A stretch of DNA of 64,000 bases from Flavobacterium indicum GPTSA100-9 = DSM 17447 (lineage in GTDB: Bacteria > Bacteroidota > Bacteroidia > Flavobacteriales > Flavobacteriaceae). The first letter of the stretch is position 1; each line of letters opens with the position of its first letter. Positions 7,065 to 31,152 of the stretch are shown here, piece after piece. The notes beneath the pieces are model-generated. The model was given only the letters and a program-made list of their open reading frames with translations, was not told the DNA's origin and did no database searches. Location of the stretch: positions 1,674,001 through 1,738,000 of the forward strand of contig NC_017025.1 in NCBI RefSeq assembly GCF_000455605.1, written 5' to 3'. The position numbers were made by a program, and so were the translations under genes.

Positions 7065-8015
7065 TTAACTTTTAAATCTAAATCTTGGTTTGTTATTTAC
7101 ACTTTTAACAGTAGTGTTAATTTCTTGTCTAGTATCATTTGGTTTTGGACGTTCTTTTGATGAAAATTCTGAACTGCTTCCATTAAAACCATTTGATTCT
7201 TTTTTAGTTGTTCTATTTCCAGCATTAACTTCTGGAATAATAGAATGGTCTCTGTTTTGTTCATCTGTTATAATTTTAGTTTTAATATTATTCCAAGAAA
7301 AGTTTTTATGTATTTTACTTCCTTTGTAGAAAATTCCTTTATATTCAAATGATATTCCTGATATAAATCCTGTTGTTAAACTTTGATTGATTTTGACATT
7401 AACGTCTTTTAACTTCAGCTTAACAATAAAATCTTTCATCAGCAAATCTTGATTTAGAATTTCTAATAAAATATTTTGCAATTCTAAACGCTCTGGCACA
7501 TCACCAGTTCGTAAACATTTTTCTATTTCACCTTTTGATAAAACATTAGATTGTTCCTTTCGAACGAATTCGGTTAAATTATATTTCTGCTCTAATTTTC
7601 TAATTATTGCTTCACTACGTTTATAATCATTTGAATCGCTTACTACATCACCAGAATACTTGACACGATTCGCAACTATATGGATATGAGAATGATACCT
7701 GTCAAAGTGTTTATATATTACGTATTGACTATCTTTGAAACCCATTCCTTCAAGGTAATCTCTTGCTAAGTTTGCGAATTTCTCATCAGATAATTTATTT
7801 GCGTCCTCATAGGGTAAGTTCAAACTCACATGATAAACTGCTTTTGATAAGTTGGGCTTAAGCTGCCGAACCACGTTTAACTCTTTGGTTTGTTTTATAA
7901 CCGAACTAGATGCTAAATTGGAATCCAATATAATAGCCTCACCTTTATCTACTTTATTTTGATTGTATTTCAAAACATTACAGAAATCAATACCCTTTAT
8001 CTGCTTGGCTATCAT
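7065..8015 (-). CDS. mobA: Relaxase/mobilization nuclease (MobA type)
   Basis: Relaxase of the Pfam Relaxase (PF03432) type, which nicks oriT and stays bound to the transferred strand. The 316-residue protein has the N-terminal MIAKQIKG block, a conserved AVYHVSLNLP strand, and the metal-binding triad HSHIHIV near residues 108-114, followed by NRVKYSG. The likely catalytic Tyr is among the N-terminal third. The C-terminal part (after residue 230) is polar and low in complexity. mobC ends 5 bp upstream. The gene appears intact, so the module may still be mobilizable in trans. Length is in the lower range of the family, typical of small plasmid relaxases. Confidence 0.9.
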   Translation of the reverse strand: MIAKQIKGIDFCNVLKYNQNKVDKGEAIILDSNLASSSVIKQTKELNVVRQLKPNLSKAVYHVSLNLPYEDANKLSDEKFANLARDYLEGMGFKDSQYVIYKHFDRYHSHIHIVANRVKYSGDVVSDSNDYKRSEAIIRKLEQKYNLTEFVRKEQSNVLSKGEIEKCLRTGDVPERLELQNILLEILNQDLLMKDFIVKLKLKDVNVKINQSLTTGFISGISFEYKGIFYKGSKIHKNFSWNNIKTKIITDEQNRDHSIIPEVNAGNRTTKKESNGFNGSSSEFSSKERPKPNDTRQEINTTVKSVNNKPRFRFKS

Positions 8016-8019
8016 ATAG

Positions 8020-8358
8020 TTATATCAATAATTGATTTTTAATTTCGTTTAATTGTTTGTGTAAACTCGATAATTCACTTTCTAATCCTTTTAAATTAGG
8101 ATTTCCTTGATTTACTCTTTTTGACATTTGATTGATGTTGTTCCCAATTCGAGAAAGTTCAATAAGCAAATCTCTTTGTAATCCTGACATTGTGAATTTT
8201 GGCAACTGTTTTTGTAAAACTCTTCGTCTAATATATTGAACTACAGTTAAACCATAATTTTTAGCAACTTCCTCTAATTGAACTTGCTCATTTAAAGTAA
8301 CTCTTAGATTTATTTGAAATAACTTGATTTCATCTAATTTCTTTCTTGGTCGTGCCAT
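8020..8358 (-). CDS. mobC: Relaxosome accessory protein MobC
   Basis: A 112-residue basic protein beginning MARPRKKLDEIK with a ribbon-helix-helix-like start (FQINLRVTLNEQVQLEEVAKNYG), then the MobC signature LIELSRIGNNINQMSKRVNQG and a C-terminal coiled coil. MobC proteins bind oriT and help the relaxase open DNA. It is directly upstream of mobA and is separated from the likely oriT by the tandem repeats and an inserted IS3 element. Confidence 0.88.
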   Translation of the reverse strand: MARPRKKLDEIKLFQINLRVTLNEQVQLEEVAKNYGLTVVQYIRRRVLQKQLPKFTMSGLQRDLLIELSRIGNNINQMSKRVNQGNPNLKGLESELSSLHKQLNEIKNQLLI

Positions 8359-8887: not shown

Positions 8888-9766
8888 TTAAGCTACATTT
8901 TTGTAAATGTTTTTTTGATTATTAAATTCTTCGATTGTTTTATAATTCAATGAACTGTGGCGTCTTTTTTTATTATACCAAATTTCGATGTATTCAAAGA
9001 TTTCCAGTTCCATTTGCTTTTTAGTTATTAGTTTATTGCCATAAATTAATTCGGTCTTCAATGATTTAAAAAAGCTTTCTGCTACTGCATTATCCCAACA
9101 ATTTCCTTTTCTACTCATACTTCTAATTACTCCGTAAGATTCAATTGTATTTGCAAATTTTTTGTTTGCATATTGAACTCCTCTGTCAGAATGAAAAATC
9201 AATCCTTTCTCAACGATTCTATTTTTTATAGCCATTTTCCACGCTGAGAGAGTTGTATCTTCAGTATTCATTGTGTTGCTTAAACTCCAACCAATCATTT
9301 TACGGTCGTACAAATCGATGATTGTTGTTAGATATAAAAATCCTTCTTTGGTTTGAATATAAGTGATGTCTGATACCCAAACTTTTGATGGATTAGCAAC
9401 CATAAAGTTTCTATTCAACACATTTTCTACCACTAAATAATTATGCTTTGAATCGGTGGTAACTTTGAATTTCTTACTTAATTTACTTTTTAAACCAAGT
9501 TCATTCATATATTTTGCAACTGTTATTCTTGATATTTTGTAGCCCAATGTATTTAACTCAATAGTGATTCTTGGACTTCCATAGCGTTGTTTTGAGGCAA
9601 AATAAATGGTTGTTATTTGTTGTTTTATTTCGTTTTTTCTAATTGTTCTTTTAGAAAGCGTTTTGCTTTTCCATTTATAATAACTACTAGAACCAACTTC
9701 TAACACTTTACACATTTTTTCAATCGAAAATAGATATTCATGATGTTTAATGAATTTATATTTCAT
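8888..9766 (-). CDS. IS3-family transposase OrfB (DDE integrase domain), copy 1
   Basis: A 292-residue rve-type transposase. An HTH_21-like region (RYGSPRITIELN) precedes the DDE core, with Asp in WVSDITYIQT, Asp in HSDRGVQYAN, and Glu in DNAVAESFFKSLKTEL. Full length is normal for IS3 OrfB. It overlaps OrfA by four bases (ATGA). A run of seven A then G near the end of orfA would allow the -1 frameshift that makes the OrfAB transposase in this family. Confidence 0.95.
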   Translation of the reverse strand: MKYKFIKHHEYLFSIEKMCKVLEVGSSSYYKWKSKTLSKRTIRKNEIKQQITTIYFASKQRYGSPRITIELNTLGYKISRITVAKYMNELGLKSKLSKKFKVTTDSKHNYLVVENVLNRNFMVANPSKVWVSDITYIQTKEGFLYLTTIIDLYDRKMIGWSLSNTMNTEDTTLSAWKMAIKNRIVEKGLIFHSDRGVQYANKKFANTIESYGVIRSMSRKGNCWDNAVAESFFKSLKTELIYGNKLITKKQMELEIFEYIEIWYNKKRRHSSLNYKTIEEFNNQKNIYKNVA

Positions 9767-12455: not shown

Positions 12456-13859
12456 TATACCATTTTCGAAGAAACCAATTTCGTATTCCACTTAATAATA
12501 GACGATTTACCTCTAGATTATTCAATTCTTGATGAAATTGATTATAAATACCCTACAGGTAGTGCTTATTTTACATTTATGACTAAAGGGTGCACTCGCA
12601 AATGTTCATTTTGTTCTGTTCCTATTCTCGAACCAACATACAAACCAAAAATTAATACTATTGACAAGTTTAAGGAAATAAAGGATAGATTTGGAGAACA
12701 ACAGAATTTATTACTGATGGATAATAATGTACTTGCATCTCCTCAATTTGTAGAGATCATTGATGAAATAAAAGCAATGGGTTTCTATAAAGGAGCAACT
12801 TTTGTTGAACCCAACCAATTTGAAATTGCTATTAAAAACTTAAAAGAAGGATTTAATGATATAGCATTTATAAAAAAATGCTTCTATTTATTAAATGAAT
12901 TATTAACTAAAAGAATTAAAAACAAAGATAAAGCCGAGGAGTTTAGAAGCATTTTAGATAGTTACCACCTTTTAAATATAAAGACCACCACAAAAGAAAA
13001 TTTAATCAATTCTTTTCCAGAACTAAATCCTTTGTTTGAAAAATATAGAGATAAGACTGCAAAAGCTAGATATGTCGATTTTAACCAAGGAACAGATGCT
13101 AGGTATGTTACTGATGAATTAATGAACAAGATGAGTGAGATTCCAATAAGACCACTTCGAGTAGCATTTGATTATCTTGGTATGGAAAAACAATATGTTA
13201 ATGCTGTTAGATTAGCAGCTAAATATGACATTAAAGAATTGTCAAATTATCTACTATATAATTTCAAGGATAAACCAGAAGAATTATATAGAAGAATGGA
13301 AATAAATATTGAATTGGCAGAAGAATTAAATTTACACATATTTTCGTTCCCTATGAAATATATTCCTTTATTTGGTGAAGATGCTAAACATAGAGAATAT
13401 GTTGGAAATCATTGGAATAAAAAATATATTAGAGCAATTCAATCAATTTTAAATGTAACAAAAGGCATTGTTGCTTCTGGAAGAAATTTCTTTGAGAGAG
13501 CGTTCGGTAAAGATGTAAATGAATTTTATGAAATATTACACATGCCTGAAACTTATATCGTTTACAGAAGTTTATTTGAAGAAACAGGATTAACTGATAT
13601 TTGGAAAAGTGAATTTAGAGCAATAAAAGAAAGTAACTTTTGGGATGAAGTTAAAATAATTATTGAAAATAGTGATTTTAAAAATTTAGAGGATAAAACT
13701 AAAAATCCAGATATTTTATCTTTTCTAAAACATTATACAATTACAAGAGATGATGTTAATGAGGAAGATAAAGAGGTTGAAAAAATCAGAAAAAGATACA
13801 ACAACTTGATTAAAAAAGATAAATTCGTAAACCTTACTCTAACATATGATTTTGAATAA
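12456..13859 (+). pseudogene. Radical SAM protein, 5'-truncated
   Basis: The radical SAM cluster motif CxxxCxxC is seen as GCTRKCSFC, followed by strands typical of the TIM barrel (LLLMDNNVLASP, RYVDFNQGTDARYV). The in-frame sequence upstream of the first ATG (12579) still looks like family sequence (DDLPLDYSILDEIDYKYPTG), back to a stop at 12453. Related Bacteroidota proteins carry a further N-terminal domain of roughly 100 or more residues before this point, which is absent. The remaining 426 codons from 12579 include the cluster motif, so a shortened protein could be made. Substrate is unknown; no B12-binding domain or SPASM domain is visible. It converges on the peptide operon but is separated by a strong terminator. 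Confidence 0.7.
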
Positions 13860-13877
13860 ATCATATGTTAAAGTAAG
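13833..13877. terminator. Bidirectional hairpin terminator
   Basis: Nineteen-base arms (13833-13851 and 13859-13877) pair with one mismatch around a 7-nt loop, overlapping the radical SAM stop codon. A long A run follows on the plus strand (13881-13894). It lies between convergent genes, the radical SAM gene and the HlyD gene. Confidence 0.85.
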
Positions 13878-13895
13878 TATTAAAAAAAAAAAAAA

Positions 13896-15179
13896 TTACC
13901 TCCTAAAAACATCTCTAAACTGATATAACAACCTTTCCAATAAACGTAAATCTTCTGTTATAATATCAGCTGTTCCAGTCATTTCCTGTTGAAAGTTGAC
14001 TTGCTTTTTATATGAAGTTTGGAGTCCGTTTGGAAGTTCTATATCTAAAAGTAAATTGCCTTCTTTATCAGGAGTTAATGATATTGTTTTTAATTTTCCC
14101 TCGATTACTCCAAATTCTCTATCTGGATAATTGGCTAATCGAATGTTTACTTTTTGACCGATTTGTAATTTTCCTGAGTTTTGAGCTACGGCTTTAACTT
14201 TTCCAATGTAGCCTTTTTCAGTTGAAGGTATAATGGCAAACATGTTTTCTCCTGCGTTTATGGTTTGATTTTCTGACCAAATTTGTAAAAAGGAAACAGT
14301 ACCTTTAACTGATGAACGAAAGACATAATTTAACTCCCAATCTTTAATTGCTTTTTTAAGTTGGTAAAACGATTGCATTACACTTCTTTCTAAATTAATT
14401 GAAGTGGTACTTTCATTTATTACGGTTGTTTTACTACTTCTATTCAATTCGTTAATGGAAGATTTCAATTGTGAAATCGAACTTAATAAACTTTTGTAGT
14501 TCTTTTCTGCTTGCAAATAAACCAATCGTTGCTTTTCGATTTCTTGAACTGAAATGACACCTTTTTTAAACAATTTCTCATAACGCTCAACATCAGTTTT
14601 TAATAACTGAAGTTCTGATTGATTAATATCTTTTTGTCCCTCCAAAAGTTCTAATCGATCTCTTAGTTGTTTGGCTTCAAAATTTTGCGCACTAGATTCA
14701 ACTTTATAAGGTTGTAATTGTTTGTTTAATTCGCTTGCGATATACTCTTTTTGAAACATAGCAAAACTATTTTCAATTTCTCCCAATTGTGCCGCTTGTA
14801 ATTTTTCAAAAGGGAATTTTGAATTACTTAAAGAAATCGTATCTGTGATGACTTTTAAAAGAAATACATCTTTATAATTGGCCGCATTTTCTATTACTGC
14901 TAATGGTGTATTTTCATTAACTATTGCTTTATCATCAATTAAAATAGCTTGAATTTTACCAGATGTTTTAGCAACTAGTTTTTCAGGTGGGATTTGGGTT
15001 GTAATAGTGATTTCAGTAGTTATTATATCTGGATATTTAACCATCCAAGATACCAAAAATAAAAGCAGTAAAATAACTAAAACTACCAAAGAGCCCCATC
15101 GAATAATCCAATGTGGAATTTTAGTTAATATATCCTGAACTTCCTCGCTTCTGAGTTCTATTTCGTTATGATTTGGCAT
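13896..15179 (-). CDS. HlyD-family membrane fusion (adaptor) protein
   Basis: Periplasmic adaptor linking an inner-membrane ABC exporter to an outer-membrane channel. The 427-residue protein has an N-terminal membrane helix (residues 28-48, WGSLVVLVILLLLFLVSW), a first lipoyl half (KTSGKIQAILIDD), a long coiled coil (about 150-270), the second lipoyl half (VKGTVSFLQIWSENQ) and a beta-barrel part (LQIGQKVNIRLANYPDREFG). It starts one base after the ABC exporter stop, so the two are co-translated. As last gene of the operon it completes the route for secretion of the matured peptide. Confidence 0.92.
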   Translation of the reverse strand: MPNHNEIELRSEEVQDILTKIPHWIIRWGSLVVLVILLLLFLVSWMVKYPDIITTEITITTQIPPEKLVAKTSGKIQAILIDDKAIVNENTPLAVIENAANYKDVFLLKVITDTISLSNSKFPFEKLQAAQLGEIENSFAMFQKEYIASELNKQLQPYKVESSAQNFEAKQLRDRLELLEGQKDINQSELQLLKTDVERYEKLFKKGVISVQEIEKQRLVYLQAEKNYKSLLSSISQLKSSINELNRSSKTTVINESTTSINLERSVMQSFYQLKKAIKDWELNYVFRSSVKGTVSFLQIWSENQTINAGENMFAIIPSTEKGYIGKVKAVAQNSGKLQIGQKVNIRLANYPDREFGVIEGKLKTISLTPDKEGNLLLDIELPNGLQTSYKKQVNFQQEMTGTADIITEDLRLLERLLYQFRDVFRR

Positions 15180-15180
15180 A

Positions 15181-17376
15181 TTAATTTCCTAATTGCAATT
15201 GATTTTTTACTAACTCGTAATAGTTTCCTTTCTTGGCTACCAATTCACTATGGTTACCCATTTCAATAATTTTTCCTTTTTCCAAAACCACAATTTGATC
15301 AGCATTCATAACTGTACTTAATCGATGTGCAATGACCACAACAGTTTTGTTTTTGAAAAAGATATTTAGCTTCTCCATAATTTCTTTTTCGTTATTAGCA
15401 TCTAAGGCAGAAGTAGCTTCATCAAAAAATAACATTTCCGGATTTTTGTAAACAGCTCTAGCTATTAATAAACGTTGCTTTTGTCCTGTACTCATACCGA
15501 CACCTTCTTGCCCAATTTTGGTATTGAATCCTAAAGGATATTCTTGAATGAAGCTTAAAATATTAGCCACATCAGCGGCATAAACTAAACGTTCTTTATC
15601 AATTATATCAACACCAACCGCAATATTATTGGCAATTGTATCATTGAAGATATATCCTTCTTGCATTACTGTTCCAATATGAGAACGCCAGGATTTTTGT
15701 TTGATATTATTTAAGTCCGTTTTACCAATTGTAATTTGACCTTTATTCGGTTCGTAGAACTTTAATAATAGTTTCATTAATGTTGTTTTACCACTTCCAC
15801 TGGTTCCAACAATTGCGGTTATTTTATTAGTAGGGATATTCAAATTCAAATTATCTAACACATTAGTATCTGAACCTACATATCTAAAAGAAACTTCATT
15901 TAAGGCAATATCACTTTCTAATGGAATATCATTGGTTTGTGTTTCTTCTTGTTTTGCTTCATCCTCTTTTTCGTGAATTTCAGACAATCGAGCTAATGAT
16001 ATTTTAGCATCTTGTACTTCTCTAATGAATCCGATTAATTGCAAAACTGGACCATTTAGATTTCCAACAATACTACTAATTGCCATCATCATCCCTAAAG
16101 TGATTTGCCCATCAATAACTAATTTTGCTGATAGAAAAACAATGATGATATTTTTTAATTCGTTGATGAAGTTAGAACCAATACTTTGCGTTTGTTCTAA
16201 TACTAAACTTTTCATTGAAACTCTGAATAATCTTGCTTGGACATATTCCCAACCCCAGCGCTTTTGTTTTTCTGCATTATGAAGCTTGATTTCTTGCATT
16301 CCATTGATAAGTTCAATTACCTTACTTTGCTCTTGTGAAACTTCAGCAAAACGCTTGTAATCTAAAGCTTCTCTTCGTTTTAAAAACAAAACTACCCAGC
16401 CAAAGTATAAAATACTTCCAATAAAGAAAACTGCAAATATTTTTAAATTGTAGTAAGCCAAAACACCACCCATGATAAACATATTTATTGTAGAAAACAA
16501 TACACTTAATGAAGATGTAGTTAAAATTCGCTCAATTCTTTTATGGTCATTAATCCGTTGCATGATATCTCCAGTCATTCTGACATCAAAAAATGAAATC
16601 GGTAAATTCATTAATTTAATGAAGAAATCAGAAATAAGTGAAATATTGATTCGAGTAGATAAATGCAATAATATCCAACTTCTAATTAGTTCTAAAGCCG
16701 TTTTACCTAAGAACAAAAAAAGTTGAGCAAACAATACTAAATATATAAAATGCAGATTTTGGTTTTGAATACCAACATCTACTATACTTTGTGTAAGAAA
16801 TGGAAAAATTAGTTGCAATAAACTACCAGCTAATAAACCAATAGCTAACTGAACAACAAAAGATTTATAAGGAATAATATATTTAGTTAACAAAGCGAAA
16901 CCAAATACTTTACTATCTTCATTATCCCACTCATTTTTATAAAAAGTTGGAGTAGGTTCTAATAGCAGCGCAATTCCTTCTTCTGTTTCGGAAGTTGCAT
17001 TATTGCCTACCCATAATTTCAAAAAATCTTCTTCATTGTATTCCAACATACCATGTGCAGGATCAGAAACATAAAATTTATTTTTCTTGATTTTATAAAG
17101 AATAACATAATGGTTATTATTCCAATGTAAAATACAAGGCAACGGAGCTTCTTCTAACTTTTTAATTGATAATTTAACCCCAAGTGTTCTAAATCCAATC
17201 TTTTCTGCTGCATCACTGAGTGATAATAAATTACTACCCTCACGAGTAGTTTCTGATAAACTTCGTAAAGTTTGAATGTTCAAAGTTTTACCATAAAACT
17301 TAGCAATGATTTTTAGGCATGTTGGACCACAGTCTTTGCTGTCGGGTTGTTTGAAGAATGGGAATTTATTAAGCAT
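15181..17376 (-). CDS. Peptidase C39-domain ABC exporter (double-glycine leader processing)
   Basis: A 731-residue bacteriocin-type exporter that cuts the precursor after Gly-Gly and exports the core. The N-terminal C39 peptidase has catalytic Cys in DSKDCGPTC (about residue 16), His in NNNHYVILY and Asp in VSDPAHG. A six-helix membrane domain follows (about 165-440). The ATPase has Walker A GTSGSGKTT, signature MSTGQKQR, Walker B MLFFDEATS and the H-loop VVIAHR. All catalytic residues are present. It overlaps the SPASM gene upstream by eight bases and is followed directly by HlyD. The visible NVNGG motif in the precursor at 19895-19632 is its expected substrate. Confidence 0.95.
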   Translation of the reverse strand: MLNKFPFFKQPDSKDCGPTCLKIIAKFYGKTLNIQTLRSLSETTREGSNLLSLSDAAEKIGFRTLGVKLSIKKLEEAPLPCILHWNNNHYVILYKIKKNKFYVSDPAHGMLEYNEEDFLKLWVGNNATSETEEGIALLLEPTPTFYKNEWDNEDSKVFGFALLTKYIIPYKSFVVQLAIGLLAGSLLQLIFPFLTQSIVDVGIQNQNLHFIYLVLFAQLFLFLGKTALELIRSWILLHLSTRINISLISDFFIKLMNLPISFFDVRMTGDIMQRINDHKRIERILTTSSLSVLFSTINMFIMGGVLAYYNLKIFAVFFIGSILYFGWVVLFLKRREALDYKRFAEVSQEQSKVIELINGMQEIKLHNAEKQKRWGWEYVQARLFRVSMKSLVLEQTQSIGSNFINELKNIIIVFLSAKLVIDGQITLGMMMAISSIVGNLNGPVLQLIGFIREVQDAKISLARLSEIHEKEDEAKQEETQTNDIPLESDIALNEVSFRYVGSDTNVLDNLNLNIPTNKITAIVGTSGSGKTTLMKLLLKFYEPNKGQITIGKTDLNNIKQKSWRSHIGTVMQEGYIFNDTIANNIAVGVDIIDKERLVYAADVANILSFIQEYPLGFNTKIGQEGVGMSTGQKQRLLIARAVYKNPEMLFFDEATSALDANNEKEIMEKLNIFFKNKTVVVIAHRLSTVMNADQIVVLEKGKIIEMGNHSELVAKKGNYYELVKNQLQLGN

Positions 17377-18469
17377 CTTTTTTTATTAATTCTTGCATGC
17401 CGTAATATTCAATTGCTTTTTGTTTTAATGGATTGGTACTCCATTCTGCCCATTCATTTTTATAAGGATTATAACCGCATTTCAAAGGTTTGGATAAGTC
17501 AATGTCTCCTTCAAAATGAGTACGTTCTGTATAAGCTCTACAATCAGTACAAATATGACGAAATTCACAATCTTTACAAACGTCTATCATATCTTTAGTT
17601 ACATTCCAATATTTTTTAAAATCTGGGTGATTTAAAGGGTTTTCTAATGAAGTGTCTTTTATGTTGCCAAAATGTTTTGGTATTGCTGGACAATTACGAA
17701 TAAAGCCTTCTTCATCAATAGATATTTTTTTGTGTAAACATGTATTATAGTTAAATGATTCTAATACTTTCTTTTGATTAGTCTTGAAATTTGAAAAATT
17801 AATTTTCCCACAACTCTTAAAAGTATCAATTTTTTCATTTGTTAAAATTACCTCAAATAAAACAAGTTCAGAAAATTCATATATCTTATTTTCATTTGAA
17901 GAATGAAAAATTAATTTGGTAATTGAAAAATTTAAATTTTGGATATCTAATAATGAGTTAAAAATCTTTTCATTAAATTTCATAATAATTTCAATTGAAC
18001 GAAAATCTTTATTATTAAAATCTTTTAAAAGTGAATAGAATTTATCTTCTACAATTTCTTCAAAAAAAATGATTTGTAAAAATTTACACTGCATTTTTTG
18101 AAGTTCAAGAGCTATTTTTTCAGCTTTTAATAACAAAGTGTCAGAAAATACTAAAACTGTATTTGATATTTGATTTGATGTTTCAAATTCTTTAGAAAGT
18201 TCAGGAAAATTTTTAAATTCATTTAAATTTAAAAAATGACCCAATTCATTAATTTCTAAAAATTCTATATATTCATCAATTATTAATTTATTTTCTTTGC
18301 CATATTGATTATATACCGAATCTAAACTTTTTTTGCTATTTAATAAATCTATTACATCAACCATTGAATTCGGAATTGCAAATGATTTATTTCTTTGTAT
18401 ATCAAGGATTATACTATTATTAAATCCTTTAGTTAATATACAATTTGAAAATAATTTAAAGTAGTTCAT
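17369..18469 (-). CDS. gwsS: Grasp-with-SPASM system SPASM-domain peptide maturase
   Basis: The start is taken at ATG 18469 (MNYFKLFSNC), which shares one base with the preceding stop (TGATG). The C-terminal third is a SPASM iron-sulfur domain, with FNYNTCLHKK, IRNCPAIPKHFGNI and the cluster CKDCEFRHICTDC. No CxxxCxxC radical SAM motif exists in the N-terminal two thirds, which is the known, odd property of this family. Its partner is the ATP-grasp enzyme encoded two genes upstream. It is thought to take part in maturation of a double-glycine precursor, but its chemistry is not established. Length of 366 residues fits the family. Confidence 0.88.
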   Translation of the reverse strand: MNYFKLFSNCILTKGFNNSIILDIQRNKSFAIPNSMVDVIDLLNSKKSLDSVYNQYGKENKLIIDEYIEFLEINELGHFLNLNEFKNFPELSKEFETSNQISNTVLVFSDTLLLKAEKIALELQKMQCKFLQIIFFEEIVEDKFYSLLKDFNNKDFRSIEIIMKFNEKIFNSLLDIQNLNFSITKLIFHSSNENKIYEFSELVLFEVILTNEKIDTFKSCGKINFSNFKTNQKKVLESFNYNTCLHKKISIDEEGFIRNCPAIPKHFGNIKDTSLENPLNHPDFKKYWNVTKDMIDVCKDCEFRHICTDCRAYTERTHFEGDIDLSKPLKCGYNPYKNEWAEWSTNPLKQKAIEYYGMQELIKKDA

Positions 18470-18660
18470 CAAAATTGAGTAATTTGTTTATAGTATGGAA
18501 AAATTTGATAATCTCCGTCTTTGTAATAGATAGATTTAACAGACTTTAAGTTTTTTTTTGAAAAATCTACTTTATCTCTTACAATAGTTTGATTAAAAGA
18601 AATTGGCAAAATTTCTTCATCTCTTTTTAGTACTTGTTTAATTTCTTCTTTATCAATCAT
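18469..18660 (-). CDS. Small protein between the two maturases, 63 aa
   Basis: The start at ATG 18660 (MIDKEEIKQVLKRD) overlaps the end of the ATP-grasp gene by eight bases; an earlier ATG at 18672 is possible. The stop overlaps the gwsS start as TGATG. Such tight packing implies real translation. The protein is charged at the N-terminus and aromatic at the C-terminus (SIYYKDGDYQIFPYYKQ). It has no GG motif and does not look like a precursor. It could be a leader-binding or maturase accessory protein, but this is inference from position only. Confidence 0.65.
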   Translation of the reverse strand: MIDKEEIKQVLKRDEEILPISFNQTIVRDKVDFSKKNLKSVKSIYYKDGDYQIFPYYKQITQF

Positions 18661-19579
18661 AATAATCTGCAATTAATTTTTCTAAATTATAATTACACGG
18701 ATATGAAACCATCCCGAATTGACCAATTGGATTAACTTCTAAAAAAACGTATTCATTTTTAGGTGTTAAAATCAAATCAATCGAACCACAATCTAAGTTT
18801 AGTACATTCATTAACTTTATTATTTTCTTTTCAACTTTTAGAGGTAATTTATATGGAACACATCTGTTTGGATTTTCTTTATTATAATTTCTAAAATCGA
18901 CATTTGTCATATTATCTTTTTGAGAGAAAATAGCCATTGAATAAAATTTCATTTTAAAATAAAAAACACGCAGTTCGAATTTTTTTTCTATATAGTTTTG
19001 AATTAATGAAGGAAAAAAAAAGTCACTATTAATTAATTTTAAATCAACAATACTACTATAATTGAATAATATATAATTGTTTAATTCAAACATAGAATCT
19101 CCACTAATTGACTTACTAATATATTTTAAATTGGAATTTAGTTTTTTTTCTAATTCTTTTTTACTAGAATAAATAAAATCTAATGGAGTCAAAATTTTTA
19201 ACTGCCTAGCAATATCGGTAACAATAAGTTTGTTTAAATCCGAATTTTCAATTCCATTAATACTTTTCAATTTATTTAATGAAAAATGAATAAACTCTAA
19301 TATTTTACTAATCTCAACTCTTCTGAAACCTGCAAATGCATCATTTACATTTAAACCGTCACAAGATATATTTAAACTACCTCTTCTATACCAATACCCA
19401 GTAAGTTCACTTAGTTTAAACTCTTCTGTTTCGAGTACGAAATTAATGTCGTCACCAATAAAAGAAACTTTTACTAATTCATTTCCATTTACTCTTATCC
19501 ACTTTTTATTTTTGGCATTTAACCAATCTATTACCAATGTTGTTGAAGTATCGTATTCGTTAGAAAGAATTAAAATCAT
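18653..19579 (-). CDS. gwsG: Grasp-with-SPASM system ATP-grasp peptide maturase
   Basis: An ATP-grasp ligase of the graspetide-maturase type, expected to join Asp/Glu side chains of the precursor to Ser/Thr or Lys. The start is set at ATG 19579 (MILILSNEYDTST); an in-frame upstream extension to 19594 is coded by the terminator's A run. Visible features are the N-terminal preATP-grasp fold (WIRVNGNELVKV, YWYRRGSL), an ATP-binding strand (YISKSISGDSM), the FELRVFYFKMKFYSMAIFSQ region, and metal-binding residues in FLEVNPIGQFGMV. 308 residues is typical. It lies directly behind the precursor gene, across a hairpin terminator. Confidence 0.9.
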   Translation of the reverse strand: MILILSNEYDTSTTLVIDWLNAKNKKWIRVNGNELVKVSFIGDDINFVLETEEFKLSELTGYWYRRGSLNISCDGLNVNDAFAGFRRVEISKILEFIHFSLNKLKSINGIENSDLNKLIVTDIARQLKILTPLDFIYSSKKELEKKLNSNLKYISKSISGDSMFELNNYILFNYSSIVDLKLINSDFFFPSLIQNYIEKKFELRVFYFKMKFYSMAIFSQKDNMTNVDFRNYNKENPNRCVPYKLPLKVEKKIIKLMNVLNLDCGSIDLILTPKNEYVFLEVNPIGQFGMVSYPCNYNLEKLIADYYD

Positions 19580-19608
19580 AAAAAAAAAAGGCAATCACAA
19601 GGATTGCC
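19580..19608 (-). terminator. Intrinsic terminator between precursor and maturase genes
   Basis: On the minus strand the seven-base stem GGCAATC/GATTGCC (19590-19608) with a 5-nt loop is followed at once by ten T residues (19589-19580), which abut the ATG of the ATP-grasp gene. This should stop most transcripts after the precursor gene while letting some read through, giving more precursor than enzyme. Such partial terminators are common in peptide operons. Confidence 0.85.
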
Positions 19609-19631
19609 ATAAATTATAAATTAAAATAAAA

Positions 19632-19895
19632 TTAACACGGCATTTGGTATTCTGTTGACCACGAGCCGTCTGGCTGTTCTGTACCTGTTTTTGCCCAATT
19701 ACCCCAATCACCTCCATCTCTTTTTGTTCTTGATTCAGAATCAGCACAATTCCAATCAGCTTGGGTTGGACGGCTTTCACAAACAAAAGAAGAATCATCA
19801 GCAATTGCTATTCCACCATTTACGTTTTTCATTGATAGAGCATCTAAATTTTTGTTCTCTTCTCTAAATTCTGTTAAAGATTTTAAATTTCTCAT
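19632..19895 (-). CDS. Grasp-with-SPASM precursor peptide with double-glycine leader
   Basis: An 87-residue precursor. The leader (residues 1-28) contains LTEFREENKNLDALSMKNVNGG, matching Bacteroidota double-glycine leaders cut by C39 peptidases. The core of 59 residues starts IAIADDSSFVCESRP, is rich in Ser, Thr, Asp, Glu, Trp and Gly, and has three Cys (FVCES, WNCAD, QMPC-end). Acidic and hydroxyl residues suit ester cross-linking by the ATP-grasp partner. It starts 11 bp after the lipoprotein gene and is followed by the maturases. The final product is unknown. Confidence 0.9.
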   Translation of the reverse strand: MRNLKSLTEFREENKNLDALSMKNVNGGIAIADDSSFVCESRPTQADWNCADSESRTKRDGGDWGNWAKTGTEQPDGSWSTEYQMPC

Positions 19896-19906
19896 AATAT
19901 ATTAAT

Positions 19907-20839
19907 TTAATTGTTTAATTTTTTATAAAAATCTCCAAATAATTCTTCATTTCTCCATTTGTTATAGTTAAGACTAGGCAAACCTATAGACTTCCTAATT
20001 GAATCAACTTTTGATTCATTGATTAATTTTAATTTTTTAAATTTAATTTCTCCATACAATTGACTTCCATCAAAATTTGTTTCATCAAGAAGCAATCTAT
20101 CATAAACACCTGCATAGATTTGTGGCAAACAAAAACCTCTTTGTGAATAATCTTTTAACTTAGGCAATAAATATTCTCTCTTAAATTTTACTGAGGTATG
20201 TAAAAAAACAGCACCCAAATCAATATCTTTATCATTAAAAAGCGAATAGCCTATTAACGAATGAGAAGGATAACCATATTTATCAAAAATTATTTTTATT
20301 AAAGCCATATTTTCTTCGTTTACTTCTCTTAATTTATCATCTGAAATATACCCTTTACCTCTGACAGACTTATCTTTTTCAATCATTTTTTCAATTGTAT
20401 CTCTCAAAGTCAAATTAATTTTCTTTTTATGCATTTCAAGAAATGAATCCAAGTCCTTTCTGGTAAAACCAGTTTTTTTTAATGCAATATTTAAAATCGA
20501 ATCTTGTTCATAATTTGAAATTACAGCACCATAATTGACAAAAGATTTTTTAACTTTCTTTTTTAATCCATTAAAATTATTAGAAGCAACAGAAGTTCTA
20601 ATATAAGTTTTATATTCAGAATACCCTTCTAGGTTTATTGGTTCAAACTTTTTAAACAAACTGTCTAAAATTTCAAATGAGCGTTGATAGTTTCCTACAA
20701 TATACAAACTATCAGCTTCATTTATTTTTAGATAATAAGGTAAATAATTTGCATTTTTATCACCAATTCTTGTATAATTACTTTTACAAGAAATTAGACA
20801 TAAAAATAAAAACACGACTATTAGAAAACAATTTCTCAT
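19907..20839 (-). CDS. Lipoprotein with DUF6624-like domain, first gene of peptide operon
   Basis: A 310-residue protein with a lipoprotein signal (hydrophobic segment, then LISCKSN; lipidated Cys at 18), so anchored in a membrane. The C-terminal half resembles DUF6624: a FDKYGYPSHSLIGYSLFND segment, later LPQIYAGVYDRLLLDETN and LYGEIKF. DUF6624-type proteins often appear near Bacteroidota peptide clusters, but their role is unknown. It lies immediately upstream of the precursor and probably shares its promoter. It could be a self-protection or sensing protein; this is inference. Confidence 0.75.
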   Translation of the reverse strand: MRNCFLIVVFLFLCLISCKSNYTRIGDKNANYLPYYLKINEADSLYIVGNYQRSFEILDSLFKKFEPINLEGYSEYKTYIRTSVASNNFNGLKKKVKKSFVNYGAVISNYEQDSILNIALKKTGFTRKDLDSFLEMHKKKINLTLRDTIEKMIEKDKSVRGKGYISDDKLREVNEENMALIKIIFDKYGYPSHSLIGYSLFNDKDIDLGAVFLHTSVKFKREYLLPKLKDYSQRGFCLPQIYAGVYDRLLLDETNFDGSQLYGEIKFKKLKLINESKVDSIRKSIGLPSLNYNKWRNEELFGDFYKKLNN

Positions 20840-20885
20840 TTCATTATTTTGTTTTACAATATTAAATTATTGTTTTTAAACTTAA

Positions 20886-20918
20886 TTGCGGTTTTTTGTT
20901 AAAAGTGTTGCGGTTTTT
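20886..20918 (-). promoter_or_regulatory. Paired direct repeats upstream of the peptide operon
   Basis: The minus strand carries AAAAACCGCAA twice, ending at 20886 and 20908, spaced 22 bp, about two helical turns, so both sites face the same side. They lie 47-79 bp before the ATG of the first operon gene and downstream of the response regulator gene. Such spacing suits a dimeric response regulator; the neighbouring regulator is the obvious candidate. No convincing TAnnTTTG was located. Confidence 0.5.
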
Positions 20919-21007
20919 CTATTTTGTATTTATCTTAAAAATAGTAAATCTAATCCAATCTTTATAACAAATGTAATAAGTGGATTTTTGTGTAATAAAT
21001 GGTTGCT

Positions 21008-21031
21008 AATCTAAAAAAAGTTTTTTAGATT
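21008..21031 (-). terminator. Hairpin terminator of the response regulator gene
   Basis: Arms AATCTAAAAAA (21008-21018) and TTTTTTAGATT (21021-21031) form an AT-rich hairpin that overlaps the regulator's stop codon. It would separate regulator transcripts from the peptide operon. Confidence 0.6.
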
Positions 21032-21696
21032 AAATTAAGTTTTCTAACCCTTTCAATTAATTCATTATCATTTCCAGATTGATTTAAAACTTGAAATTTA
21101 ATCTTAACTTTTCTCTTTTCAATTGCACTTAAAGTTATCGGAATATAATTAGGCAAGTCTTTCGTTTTAATTCCTTTTTCAATTAAACTAATTATTTCAT
21201 AATCAATATTATCAAAACCAAATTTTTTATTATTTAGCTCATTAATTGAATTATATATTGTTTTTGAAATAAACTTCTCTCCTCCTAAAATTACTTTAAA
21301 AACTTCACTGAAAGTTTCAAAACCTACATCTGACTTATTAATAAAACCTTCTGGATTTACTTTTGAAATAATTTTATCAATTATTATACCTTCATGATGC
21401 ATCGTGATCATTATCACTTTAGATGTAGGATATTTTTCTTTAAATACTTTTGCTAGGTCACCACCACAAAAAATTTTTTCTTCTTTATATGCTGGCAAAC
21501 TAACATCTAGTAAAGCTATATCGATTTTATTCTTTAATTTAGAATTCTGTTCAATAATTTTAAAAGCTTCTTCTGAATTATACGCACAATAAATATTAAA
21601 GTTATAACCTTCAACTAAATTATTGAAAATTGTACAATATCCATCAACAATCATCGGGTGGTCATCTACAATAAGTAGATTTAAATCTTTATTCAT
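21025..21696 (-). CDS. LuxR/NarL-type response regulator
   Basis: A 223-residue two-component regulator. The receiver domain (1-140) has the acidic pair DDHP, the phosphoacceptor Asp in IALLDVSLPAY, the Thr switch in VIMITMHH and Lys in GFINKSD. A short C-terminal helix-turn-helix follows (ISLIEKGIKTKDLPNYIPITLSAIEKRKVKIKFQ), shaped like LuxR/NarL domains. No histidine kinase gene is present in the window, so it is an orphan here. It is transcribed toward the peptide operon and may bind the paired repeats upstream of it. Confidence 0.85.
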   Translation of the reverse strand: MNKDLNLLIVDDHPMIVDGYCTIFNNLVEGYNFNIYCAYNSEEAFKIIEQNSKLKNKIDIALLDVSLPAYKEEKIFCGGDLAKVFKEKYPTSKVIMITMHHEGIIIDKIISKVNPEGFINKSDVGFETFSEVFKVILGGEKFISKTIYNSINELNNKKFGFDNIDYEIISLIEKGIKTKDLPNYIPITLSAIEKRKVKIKFQVLNQSGNDNELIERVRKLNLI

Positions 21697-21792
21697 TTTA
21701 ATAAATTTTGTATTTTAACGAAGAATTACTTGTAAAAGTATTATAATTTAAAATTTATAGTAAATGGTTTACATAAAAAAATTGAAAAAAAT

Positions 21793-22713
21793 ATTTGGCC
21801 ATTACACGTTCCTCCTCTTCCAGACGAGCTATTTTCATCATGGATATACAGATTAGCAAATAATCATCGAATTAGCCCAGAGACATTAATAAATGAATCT
21901 TTGAATAAAAAATTGCTTATTAAGATTAACAGCCTTGATATTGAACCTGATTCAATTCATATTGATCTAATAACTCAAAATACACCTTTGAGCTCTGAAC
22001 AATTTGAGAAACTATTTTTAAATCATTATAACTCTAACATTCTTGAAGAAATAATCAATTCACTACACTTTTTAAAAGTTAACGATCCTAAAAACAAGAA
22101 AAATGGAATTGTTTTTTGTCCAAACTGTTTATCTAAAGGAATAGCCTATTTTAAAAGAAAGTGGTTATTGACTTCATCTATTGTATGTTGTGAATGTAAC
22201 TCATATTTAATGGATTATTGCCCTAATTGTTTCAAACATTTTTCGTATTGGGACACAACAAAAAAATCAGAACTAGTTAATAACTCTATAACATCTTGTA
22301 GATGTGGTTTAGATATTTCAAAATTTTCTTTTCCATTAAGCCCTACTCAATTAGAAATTGACTATCAAAAATATATTGATTTCACAATTGAAAATGGATT
22401 TAATAACCATACCCAATACTCATTCACGTATTTAAATACGCTAATGTTCACGGCTTCAATGATTAAAAAAATTATAAAATCGCCAAAGTATAAGAAAAAG
22501 TTAAATAAAATATATCCTGATCTAATTATTGACATCGAAGTACCTACAAATAAATGGACGCTTTCAGAAAGGCAATACTTACTGCCAATTGCTTATTATT
22601 TACTTGATAATTTCCCGAATCGGATAAAAGAGGTATTTCCAAAGAAATATAATCTTAAAAAGGAATTTGGGCAGCTACCATATTGGTTTGAAAAAGAATT
22701 AATTTTCAGATGA
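21793..22713 (+). CDS. TniQ/TnsD-like transposition target-selection protein, start codon unclear
   Basis: The frame is open from 21737 and begins to look like TniQ at 21796 (WPLHVPPLPDELFSSWIYRLA), the family's classic N-terminus. Zinc ligands follow in the expected order: FCPNCLSKG, IVCCECNSYLMDYCPNCF and SCRCGL. TniQ/TnsD proteins recognise the insertion site and recruit transposase in Tn7-like elements. There is no ATG or GTG before the conserved N-terminus; ATT codons at 21793 or earlier, or TTG at 21901, would have to serve. The start may have been lost. It converges with the TnsE-like remnant, overlapping by 15 bp, and is divergent from the response regulator. At about 300 residues it is the size of short TniQ proteins. 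Confidence 0.8.
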   Translation: MWPLHVPPLPDELFSSWIYRLANNHRISPETLINESLNKKLLIKINSLDIEPDSIHIDLITQNTPLSSEQFEKLFLNHYNSNILEEIINSLHFLKVNDPKNKKNGIVFCPNCLSKGIAYFKRKWLLTSSIVCCECNSYLMDYCPNCFKHFSYWDTTKKSELVNNSITSCRCGLDISKFSFPLSPTQLEIDYQKYIDFTIENGFNNHTQYSFTYLNTLMFTASMIKKIIKSPKYKKKLNKIYPDLIIDIEVPTNKWTLSERQYLLPIAYYLLDNFPNRIKEVFPKKYNLKKEFGQLPYWFEKELIFR

Positions 22714-25078: not shown

Positions 25079-26621
25079 TTATTTGTAATAATTTTTTCCT
25101 CTGATGTTGTTGTGATTAAGCAATTCAAATTCTTCTTCTTGCTCATTATCAGCGTTGTCTAAGTTGTTTTCTAAAATGTTTTGGATGGCTTTAAAACTGT
25201 AAATCCTAAAATCGAGTGCGCGTTTACAAGCATTGATTAATCTTTGTTTTCCGACTTTTTTCTCAAAGTTCAATATGCCTAAACAACTTTTATAAGCTTG
25301 TTCGGGGTGATTTCTACTTTCAATAATTTGGATAATATAATCTGCTACGGCTTGGTCAATACTATTTGCCCAATCAATAAACCGACTAGCACTCCAATCA
25401 GCAACAAACTGATGTGTGCTGGATAAATGTTCGGCAATAGTAGTATAATCGTAAGGCTTATAATTTCTTGGATGTATGGCGATTCGGTTGTATTTGTAGA
25501 AGATTTCAACCGTAGTTTTGGGATACAAAAGTTTTACTTTTTTCCTCACGTATTGGTACGGAACACTATAATAACTCTTGTCTTGACTCAGTAATACATG
25601 ACCGTTTTGCATAACTGTTGCAAAGGATTGGTATCTGATTTCAAAGCGTTCTTGAGGTAATGGACGTAGTTTTTGTTTCCCATCTTCTATAAATAATTCA
25701 TAGCGAGAATAGGGTCTTCCTGTGAGTTTTTTGTGATTATGGGCATCTAATAAATCCCATATTTGTTGGTTTAATTCATCTAAGTTATAAAACTGTTTTT
25801 GTTTTAGATGCACATAAATTCTTCGGTATAAGATTTTTACAGCACCTTCTGCCAATGATTTATCTCTTGGTTTGTAAGCTCGGCAATATGGTAGTTTCGT
25901 AATGCTCTGCTATCAGCCAAGGTTTCATTAATTGTTGGTTCAAAACGACCTGGCTTTTAATTACGGCTGACTTTAGATTATCGGGAACAATTGTCGCAGG
26001 AACACCTTCAAAAAAACGCATAGCATTCTCTACCGAAGTTACAAAATCTTCTTTCTGTTGGCTCATAGAAGCTTCAGCATACGTGTGTTGACTTGCGCCT
26101 AGTATGGCAACAAAAAACTGAACTTCTTTAATCTCTCCCGTATCTTTTGCAATAATAGAAAGTGTTTTTCCAGCATAATCCACATACATTTTATCACCTG
26201 CTTTGTGATTCATATGCATTACTAGATTAACGCGTTTACTCCATATTTTAAAGTGATGTCTAAATTGAGAACTCTTAAAACCATCAGGATGTATAGTAAT
26301 ATATTGCTCCCACATGTGCTGGACGGTAACTCCAACTTTCTTGAGTTCGCGTTCCATTTGTGGAAAAAAATCATGAAGCTTTTGTAGTCTGGGATCTATG
26401 GTTTCAACTGTATTTTGTGAAAATAAAACTTCAAGTTCTGCATCTGTTTTGGCATCAATAGCTTCAAAACTTAAGCCTAGAAGTTCAAATAAAGAAATAT
26501 ATTTCTTTACCTTATTTCTTGAAAGCGATAAGTAATTGCTAATAAATAACTTACTCTTACCACTACAGTGAAATTTAATTACTTTTCTAATCTTACTCAT
26601 GTCTGTTACTTTGTTTGCCAT
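25079..26621 (-). pseudogene. istA: IS21 transposase IstA, frameshifted
   Basis: ATG 26621 (MANKVTDMSKIRKVI) begins an HTH domain, followed by the DDE core with Asp in KMYVDYAGKT and in TIVPDNLKSAV. After AEHYETTILP the frame shifts and meets a stop at 25860; the next frame resumes the family sequence (RAYKPRDKSLAEGAVKILYRR, holding the catalytic Glu) down to 25079. The two halves total about 515 residues, the normal IstA length. Its end lies 17 bp upstream of istB. Confidence 0.9.
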
Positions 26622-29977: not shown

Positions 29978-30277
29978 ATGAAACGAGAAAGAAAAATCTA
30001 TGATCCAGCTTTTAAGACAAAAGCAGTTCAATTAAGTAATGAAAGAGATAATATTTCAGAACTGGCAAGAGAACTAGGAATAAAAGTTAGTTTACTTTAT
30101 AAATGGCGAAAAGAATACGAAGAATTTGGCGAAGGCAGTTTTCCTGGAAAAGGAAATCTTAAACTAACACCAGAACAAGAAAAGATTGTTGAGCTTGAGA
30201 AAAAGCTAAAAGATGCAGAACTAGAACGTGATATATTAAAAAAAGCAATCGGCATTTTTTCCAAGAGCGGTCGATGA
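29978..30277 (+). CDS. IS3-family transposase OrfA, copy 2
   Basis: Identical in sequence to the product at 9763-10062: a 99-residue HTH plus leucine-zipper protein. The slippery A7G run at 30238-30245 would let ribosomes shift by -1 into the orfB frame upstream of its ATG, producing the fused OrfAB transposase usual for the family. Confidence 0.95.
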   Translation: MKRERKIYDPAFKTKAVQLSNERDNISELARELGIKVSLLYKWRKEYEEFGEGSFPGKGNLKLTPEQEKIVELEKKLKDAELERDILKKAIGIFSKSGR

Positions 30278-31152
30278 AATATAAATTCATTAAACATCAT
30301 GAATATCTATTTTCGATTGAAAAAATGTGTAAAGTGTTAGAAGTTGGTTCTAGTAGTTATTATAAATGGAAAAGCAAAACGCTTTCTAAAAGAACAATTA
30401 GAAAAAACGAAATAAAACAACAAATAACAACCATTTATTTTGCCTCAAAACAACGCTATGGAAGTCCAAGAATCACTATTGAGTTAAATACATTGGGCTA
30501 CAAAATATCAAGAATAACAGTTGCAAAATATATGAATGAACTTGGTTTAAAAAGTAAATTAAGTAAGAAATTCAAAGTTACCACCGATTCAAAGCATAAT
30601 TATTTAGTGGTAGAAAATGTGTTGAATAGAAACTTTATGGTTGCTAATCCATCAAAAGTTTGGGTATCAGACATCACTTATATTCAAACCAAAGAAGGAT
30701 TTTTATATCTAACAACAATCATCGATTTGTACGACCGTAAAATGATTGGTTGGAGTTTAAGCAACACAATGAATACTGAAGATACAACTCTCTCAGCGTG
30801 GAAAATGGCTATAAAAAATAGAATCGTTGAGAAAGGATTGATTTTTCATTCTGACAGAGGAGTTCAATATGCAAACAAAAAATTTGCAAATACAATTGAA
30901 TCTTACGGAGTAATTAGAAGTATGAGTAGAAAAGGAAATTGTTGGGATAATGCAGTAGCAGAAAGCTTTTTTAAATCATTGAAGACCGAATTAATTTATG
31001 GCAATAAACTAATAACTAAAAAGCAAATGGAACTGGAAATCTTTGAATACATCGAAATTTGGTATAATAAAAAAAGACGCCACAGTTCATTGAATTATAA
31101 AACAATCGAAGAATTTAATAATCAAAAAAACATTTACAAAAATGTAGCTTAA
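30274..31152 (+). CDS. IS3-family transposase OrfB, copy 2
   Basis: Identical to the 292-residue product at 8888-9766, with the complete DDE set. The perfect identity of two copies implies recent transposition. Together with OrfA it could mobilise both copies. Confidence 0.95.
   Translation: MKYKFIKHHEYLFSIEKMCKVLEVGSSSYYKWKSKTLSKRTIRKNEIKQQITTIYFASKQRYGSPRITIELNTLGYKISRITVAKYMNELGLKSKLSKKFKVTTDSKHNYLVVENVLNRNFMVANPSKVWVSDITYIQTKEGFLYLTTIIDLYDRKMIGWSLSNTMNTEDTTLSAWKMAIKNRIVEKGLIFHSDRGVQYANKKFANTIESYGVIRSMSRKGNCWDNAVAESFFKSLKTELIYGNKLITKKQMELEIFEYIEIWYNKKRRHSSLNYKTIEEFNNQKNIYKNVA

Follow-up and report, generated by a model that had tools for sequence, protein, structure and literature searches.

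An intact grasp-with-SPASM operon of Flavobacterium indicum encodes a SPASM protein without the radical SAM motif

What does a SPASM protein do when it carries no radical S-adenosylmethionine (SAM) motif? The question is raised by the minus-strand genes at positions 13896-21696 of a 64,000-nt stretch of the Flavobacterium indicum GPTSA100-9 genome (NC_017025.1, positions 1,674,001 to 1,738,000; hereafter the window), which, judged from sequence, include an intact operon of the named grasp-with-SPASM family, encoding a ribosomally synthesized and post-translationally modified peptide (RiPP). The system has been published both as graspetide group 14 and as ATP-grasp branch 5, and to our knowledge no product of any such system has been characterized. 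This is a large group of peptide systems that is described in print as radical SAM-based, and the proteins analyzed here are without the defining motif. Our favored reading, to which we assign a probability of about 0.6, is that the SPASM protein is a non-radical, leader-binding, metal-containing partner of the ATP-grasp ligase, within a graspetide operon. Given the missing motif, what a SPASM domain does without a radical engine becomes a simple question of leader binding, iron content and ligase dependence.

Our main comparison set consisted of 91 loci (the window, ten loci numbered L004-L013 and eighty numbered L024-L103), with several loci from one genome in places and some loci interrupted by contig ends; profile searches found the ATP-grasp gene in 89 of these and the SPASM gene in 90. 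Twelve later loci contained weaker SPASM relatives, which were full-length and adjoined an ATP-grasp gene in 11 cases and amounted to a fragment only in the other. A preliminary description of the window had stated that its SPASM protein lacks a radical SAM motif, and this proved true well beyond the window, as CxxxCxxC was found in 0 of 101 distinct full-length SPASM proteins, the window protein included, so that none showed the hallmark by which radical SAM membership was judged. SPASM domains have the signature C-X9-15-G-X4-C ... CX2CX5CX3C ... C, an arrangement that holds [4Fe-4S] clusters in studied enzymes. Seven cysteines of the window protein are spaced in this way (C-X10-G-X4-C, then CX2CX5C, then a final C), with CX2C in 64 of 64 sequences where canonical SPASM has CX3C. 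The eight SPASM cysteines fall into two sets that each behave as a unit: the auxiliary I (Aux I) set at 220, 244, 260 and 310, so assigned from the arrangement known from anSME, and the auxiliary II (Aux II) set at 298, 301, 307 and 331. All eight were present in 85 of the 101 proteins and only the four of Aux II in 16, with no mixed case, and the Aux II ligands were found in all 101; an earlier count over 79 proteins gave 64 with all eight, 15 without Aux I and again none mixed.

The Aux I-less proteins are ready-made natural comparisons. Because they are mutually related, the 16 do not represent 16 independent events. In the 15 of the earlier count, otherwise invariant residues near Aux I were often gone (N259 was kept in 6, P261 in 2 and R311 in 5), residues G15 and D23 of the N-terminal domain were kept in all 15, and every one of the proteins adjoined a full-length ATP-grasp gene. 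Those of L081, L082 and L083 adjoin curated double-glycine (GG) precursors, and that of L080 adjoins a GA variant. We considered and set aside repeated independent loss of Aux I: the SPASM tree needs 2 changes, and grouping the Aux I-less proteins gave the better likelihood (p 0.63). The ATP-grasp tree requires 7 changes of Aux I state, at least 3 of them forced by starred branches, and barely rejected a single clade (p 0.048), with long branches flagged in both trees. A single loss of Aux I followed by exchange of ligase partners would fit these trees just as well.

The structural model of the SPASM protein (predicted local distance difference test, pLDDT, 94) comprises a putative RiPP recognition element (RRE) at the N-terminus, followed by a barrel of reduced size and the SPASM domain. 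Its fold matches to TigE and CteB span the N-terminal domain, the barrel and SPASM, and the match to SuiB covers residues 93-334. The barrel is short, and it is also the least conserved part of the protein. The SPASM domain matched PF13186 at 23.7 bits (cut-off 21.5), and the SPASM profile, run against solved structures, retrieved nothing but a designed barrel (2.7e-5) and one weak match of the kind expected by chance.

The features of the operon and its upstream neighbor are as follows.

21025-21696, minus strand: response regulator, intact open frame
19907-20839, minus strand: lipoprotein, intact open frame
19632-19895, minus strand: precursor peptide of 87 residues, intact open frame
19590-19608, minus strand: predicted intrinsic terminator at the precursor/ATP-grasp junction, a 7-pair stem and then ten T
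18653-19594, minus strand: ATP-grasp peptide ligase of the gwsG type (TIGR04192, 326.4 bits, cut-off 230)
18469-18660, minus strand: LPL-type small protein of 63 residues, recognized by its position, an LPI segment and the C-terminal YKQITQF
17369-18469, minus strand: SPASM protein of the gwsS type (TIGR04193, 332 bits, cut-off 175)
15181-17376, minus strand: C39-peptidase exporter of the ATP-binding cassette type (PF03412, PF00664 and PF00005, all above cut-off)
13896-15179, minus strand: HlyD-type membrane fusion protein (PF13437 above cut-off, TIGR01843 below cut-off)

The eight intact genes that the preliminary description had placed here are all open frames, both maturases score well above the cut-offs of their families, and the tight packing that it had noted holds from the lipoprotein gene to the HlyD gene, with gaps and overlaps of 1 to 52 nt. 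The gap between lipoprotein and precursor genes is 11 nt, and that between precursor and ATP-grasp genes is 37 or 52 nt, depending on whether the latter starts at a TTG at 19594 within the terminator stem or at an ATG at 19579 immediately past the T-run. Overlaps of 8, 1 and 8 nt join the ATP-grasp, 63-residue protein, SPASM and exporter genes in turn, and 1 nt separates exporter from HlyD. Because of this close packing, we regard the lipoprotein-to-HlyD genes as one operon. An Rfam scan of 13500-22000 gave no match at gathering score. Family membership, motif absence, predicted fold, cysteine pattern and the terminator-like site are all computed results.

Eight residues of the ATP-grasp protein (K161, E207, R209, D233, R235, D273, E286 and N288), which we take to be the conserved ATP-grasp site residues, were identical in 29 of 29 aligned sequences. 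A purpose-made detector was applied to the 41 loci whose precursor lies no more than 700 nt away; it marked a terminator-like site in the precursor/ATP-grasp junction of 23 of them, as compared with 35 of 615 random windows matched in length and taken from the same strands; for junctions shorter than 200 nt the count was 16 of 30. Such a site may act by attenuation, ending part of the transcripts ahead of the ATP-grasp gene and so holding the precursor in excess over the enzymes, and the main text of PMC8939145 makes no mention of a terminator or of attenuation. Judged by a loose pattern, 67 of the 82 grasp-SPASM pairs had an LPL-like small open reading frame (ORF) between the two maturase genes. 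PMC8939145 proposes the LPL protein as a PqqD-like carrier, a role that the RRE-like domain predicted in the SPASM protein makes unnecessary, yet still possible.

The precursor consists of a 28-residue double-glycine leader ending in NVNGG (residues 24-28) and a 59-residue core that contains all three of its cysteines (39, 50 and 87, precursor numbering); it matched nothing in Pfam or NCBIfam. In two metagenomic relatives (76% and 66% identity), the three core cysteines are retained together with the segments WNCADSESRT.RDGG and DGSWS, with the positions right after GG being variable. Precursors differ greatly from locus to locus (111 curated candidates from 83 loci), and 25 of the 83 loci have no cysteine in any curated core. 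The earlier remark that this core is unlike the known short graspetides agrees with both the published diversity of this group and the variety of cores across these loci. A universal core motif was sought and rejected: an ungapped 14-residue motif scored 254 in its training set, against 204-222 in 8 shuffles, but failed hold-out, with held-out z values of 0.4 to 4.7 (mean 2.3, 12 halves) in cross-validation with related cores grouped. Separately, we observed an EF-hand-like calcium loop (D.D.DG.h...E type) in 6 of 74 non-redundant cores, at loci L048, L050, L069 and L102, against 0.07 expected in shuffles; the window core does not have it.

From these data we infer leader binding, partner role, bond type, cleavage and export as follows. 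The N-terminal RRE of the SPASM protein would bind the leader, with the barrel as a vestige, and its SPASM domain, with one or two four-cysteine metal sites, would shape or gate the interface with the ligase and the 63-residue protein. The ligase would then couple the acidic side chains (Asp/Glu) of the core with those of Ser/Thr/Lys, after which the C39 exporter would cut the leader at GG and the peptide would leave through HlyD. According to PMC13097080, a SPASM-domain protein invariably accompanies group 14, and graspetide ligases that require a partner protein were first reported there, in 2026; this makes partnership the most economical interpretation of the SPASM protein. We also tentatively propose, as one possibility, that GwsS proteins as a whole are SPASM domains working without a radical SAM domain: RRE-bearing, pseudo-radical adaptors in which Aux II gates the ligase. 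Aux I, of no use once there is no radical centre, may have disappeared as a whole from one branch, which was later paired with different ligases.

Several points weigh against the partner reading. Whole-chain superpositions on the fold matches were loose (5-7 Å), and when the window core was left out of motif training it scored no better than its own shuffles (p 0.73). In PMC13097080, partner dependence is demonstrated for other graspetide groups only, and the leader binding, metal content and partner role proposed for the SPASM protein are read from sequence. Within the 15 Aux I-less proteins, the SPASM domain was no better conserved than the RRE (0.51 each), and residues near Aux II persisted without Aux I (E302 in 14, R304 in 13, Y333 in 14 and P335 in 13), which would also suit the active site of another chemistry.

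That the protein is an enzyme of such a chemistry, its Aux II cluster giving sulfur or electrons for peptide modification, is the alternative that fares best, and we consider it doubtful: the Aux II ligands are universal in our set and the polar residues beside them nearly invariant, but fold comparison, the one search made, revealed no site for a second substrate or a cofactor. The all-or-none loss of cysteines would suit any four-ligand metal site, and the sites might therefore bind zinc in a structural capacity only, leaving an RRE adaptor without redox function; with seven cysteines in the arrangement that holds [4Fe-4S] in studied enzymes, though with CX2C departing from the canonical CX3C, this seems unlikely. 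Least of all do we favor a true radical SAM maturase that forms thioether or other cross-links from core cysteines. In its favor, PMC8939145 terms the branch 5 protein a radical SAM enzyme and suggests thioethers, a SPASM domain is present, and all three cysteines of the window core recur in both of its close relatives. Against it, the absence of CxxxCxxC and the many loci without core cysteines together disfavor radical thioether chemistry, the barrel is short and the least conserved part, and a neighboring radical SAM ORF, considered as the missing engine and rejected, had a phmmer relative in 0 of 90 other loci, making this reading very improbable. The ORF in question (12579-13859, plus strand) is convergent with the HlyD gene and starts at the CxxxCxxC region, and may be N-terminally truncated.

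The same genome contains three loci of this type in total, the window operon and two more. All three SPASM paralogues score above the TIGR04193 cut-off, and of the two further ATP-grasp genes one is above and one below the TIGR04192 cut-off. Recent gene conversion was rejected as the origin of the near-identical ends of the three SPASM proteins, as synonymous agreement there (0.48-0.70) was not consistently higher than elsewhere (0.40-0.76), and purifying selection would be the simpler reading. The paralogous precursor in L004 shares little more than WNCxD with the window core. Inspection of this locus by eye (L004:4958-7982) showed an extra GG peptide, a 503-residue membrane protein whose end resembles thioredoxin, and a lipoprotein that is likewise thioredoxin-like, adjoining a C39 exporter; the extra peptide is perhaps a disulfide peptide that uses the common exporter.

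The lipoprotein gave an all-helical model (pLDDT 93), for which Foldseek found nothing below E 0.001 in the PDB. In its family (34 sequences), Cys 18 is nearly invariant and His 214 invariant. The family is related to DUF6624 (PF20329), which 8 of the 34 relatives match with E values no higher than 1, the best being 1.2e-7; for the window lipoprotein there was no match to PF20329, and it so falls short of the DUF6624 cut-off. PMC13097080 lists DUF6624 for graspetide groups 18, 20, 23 and 42. The protein probably belongs to the "cluster 23" family of Makarova et al., and we would guess at a function in immunity or periplasmic handling. At L024, L035 and L057, repeated lipoprotein genes go together with repeats of the precursor or ATP-grasp gene, a pattern that would suit immunity proteins or partners dedicated to one peptide.

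The response regulator has a PF00072 receiver above cut-off and, over most of its length, matches to NarL-type NCBIfam models below cut-off; no histidine kinase was recognized among the ORFs inspected by eye or by family. It is a NarL/LuxR-type orphan and a candidate regulator of the operon. The preliminary description had offered it as a switch for the operon, and its adjacency stands (185 nt upstream of the lipoprotein gene), but its membership in the system is weakly supported. L061 has an identical gene order with a 33% identical regulator, regulator and lipoprotein relatives apparently coincide in at least four genomes, which is indirect, and PMC8939145 describes a regulator family specific to branch 5 (cluster 11, 92 occurrences), although of OmpR type and scarcely visible in our searches of these loci. 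Against membership, relatives were found in 3 of the 91 loci (4 with a looser profile), some loci being interrupted by contig ends, and of the 199 genomes of the genus, 180 have related regulators (among those listed, the highest identity other than to itself is 49%), whereas SPASM proteins above cut-off occur in only 10 of the 199. SPASM proteins above cut-off were likewise found in 11 of 299 sampled genomes of the family and 43 of 395 of the order. Three plasmid records, two from Elizabethkingia, had SPASM relatives, and in one record the NCBI gene names are gwsG and gwsS; the plasmid search with the precursor gave no match, and viral contigs yielded no confirmed ATP-grasp relative.

Around the operon lie two DNA-identical integrase-core (IS3-like) transposase genes in opposite directions (8888-9766, minus strand, and 30274-31152, plus strand). 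With a relaxase/MobC pair (7065-8358) and the C-terminal domain of a Mu-type transposase (25079-25855) as well, the region looks mobile. A TniQ-like protein (21901-22713, plus strand, below the Pfam cut-off) is divergent from the response regulator.

Compared with known systems, the window shares with other grasp-with-SPASM systems the ATP-grasp, SPASM and LPL-position proteins, the lipoprotein, the GG precursor, the C39 exporter and HlyD, and differs from them in its new precursor core and in having a NarL-type regulator where the published one is OmpR-type. In the rosaritide system (graspetide group 21), as described in PMC13097080, the MirB ATP-grasp protein likewise requires a second protein, MirC, which is PpiC-like, not SPASM; for group 14 such dependence is our inference. 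The idea of a radical-less SPASM protein is not new in itself, because NCBIfam has the name pseudo-rSAM (TIGR04150), suggestive of a protein akin to radical SAM enzymes without being such an enzyme, for another family. The 67 grasp-with-SPASM members examined all match TIGR04193, a different model, and 1 of the 67 also matches TIGR04150 (1.4e-6). The new part of this analysis concerns the SPASM protein, although the founding papers of the family, which lie outside the open-licence literature searched, may already say that it has no radical domain. The closest fold matches, TigE, CteB and SuiB, are radical SAM/SPASM RiPP maturases with an N-terminal RRE, from which the window-type proteins differ in having no CxxxCxxC, a shortened barrel, and CX2CX5CX2C in place of the canonical CX3C form.
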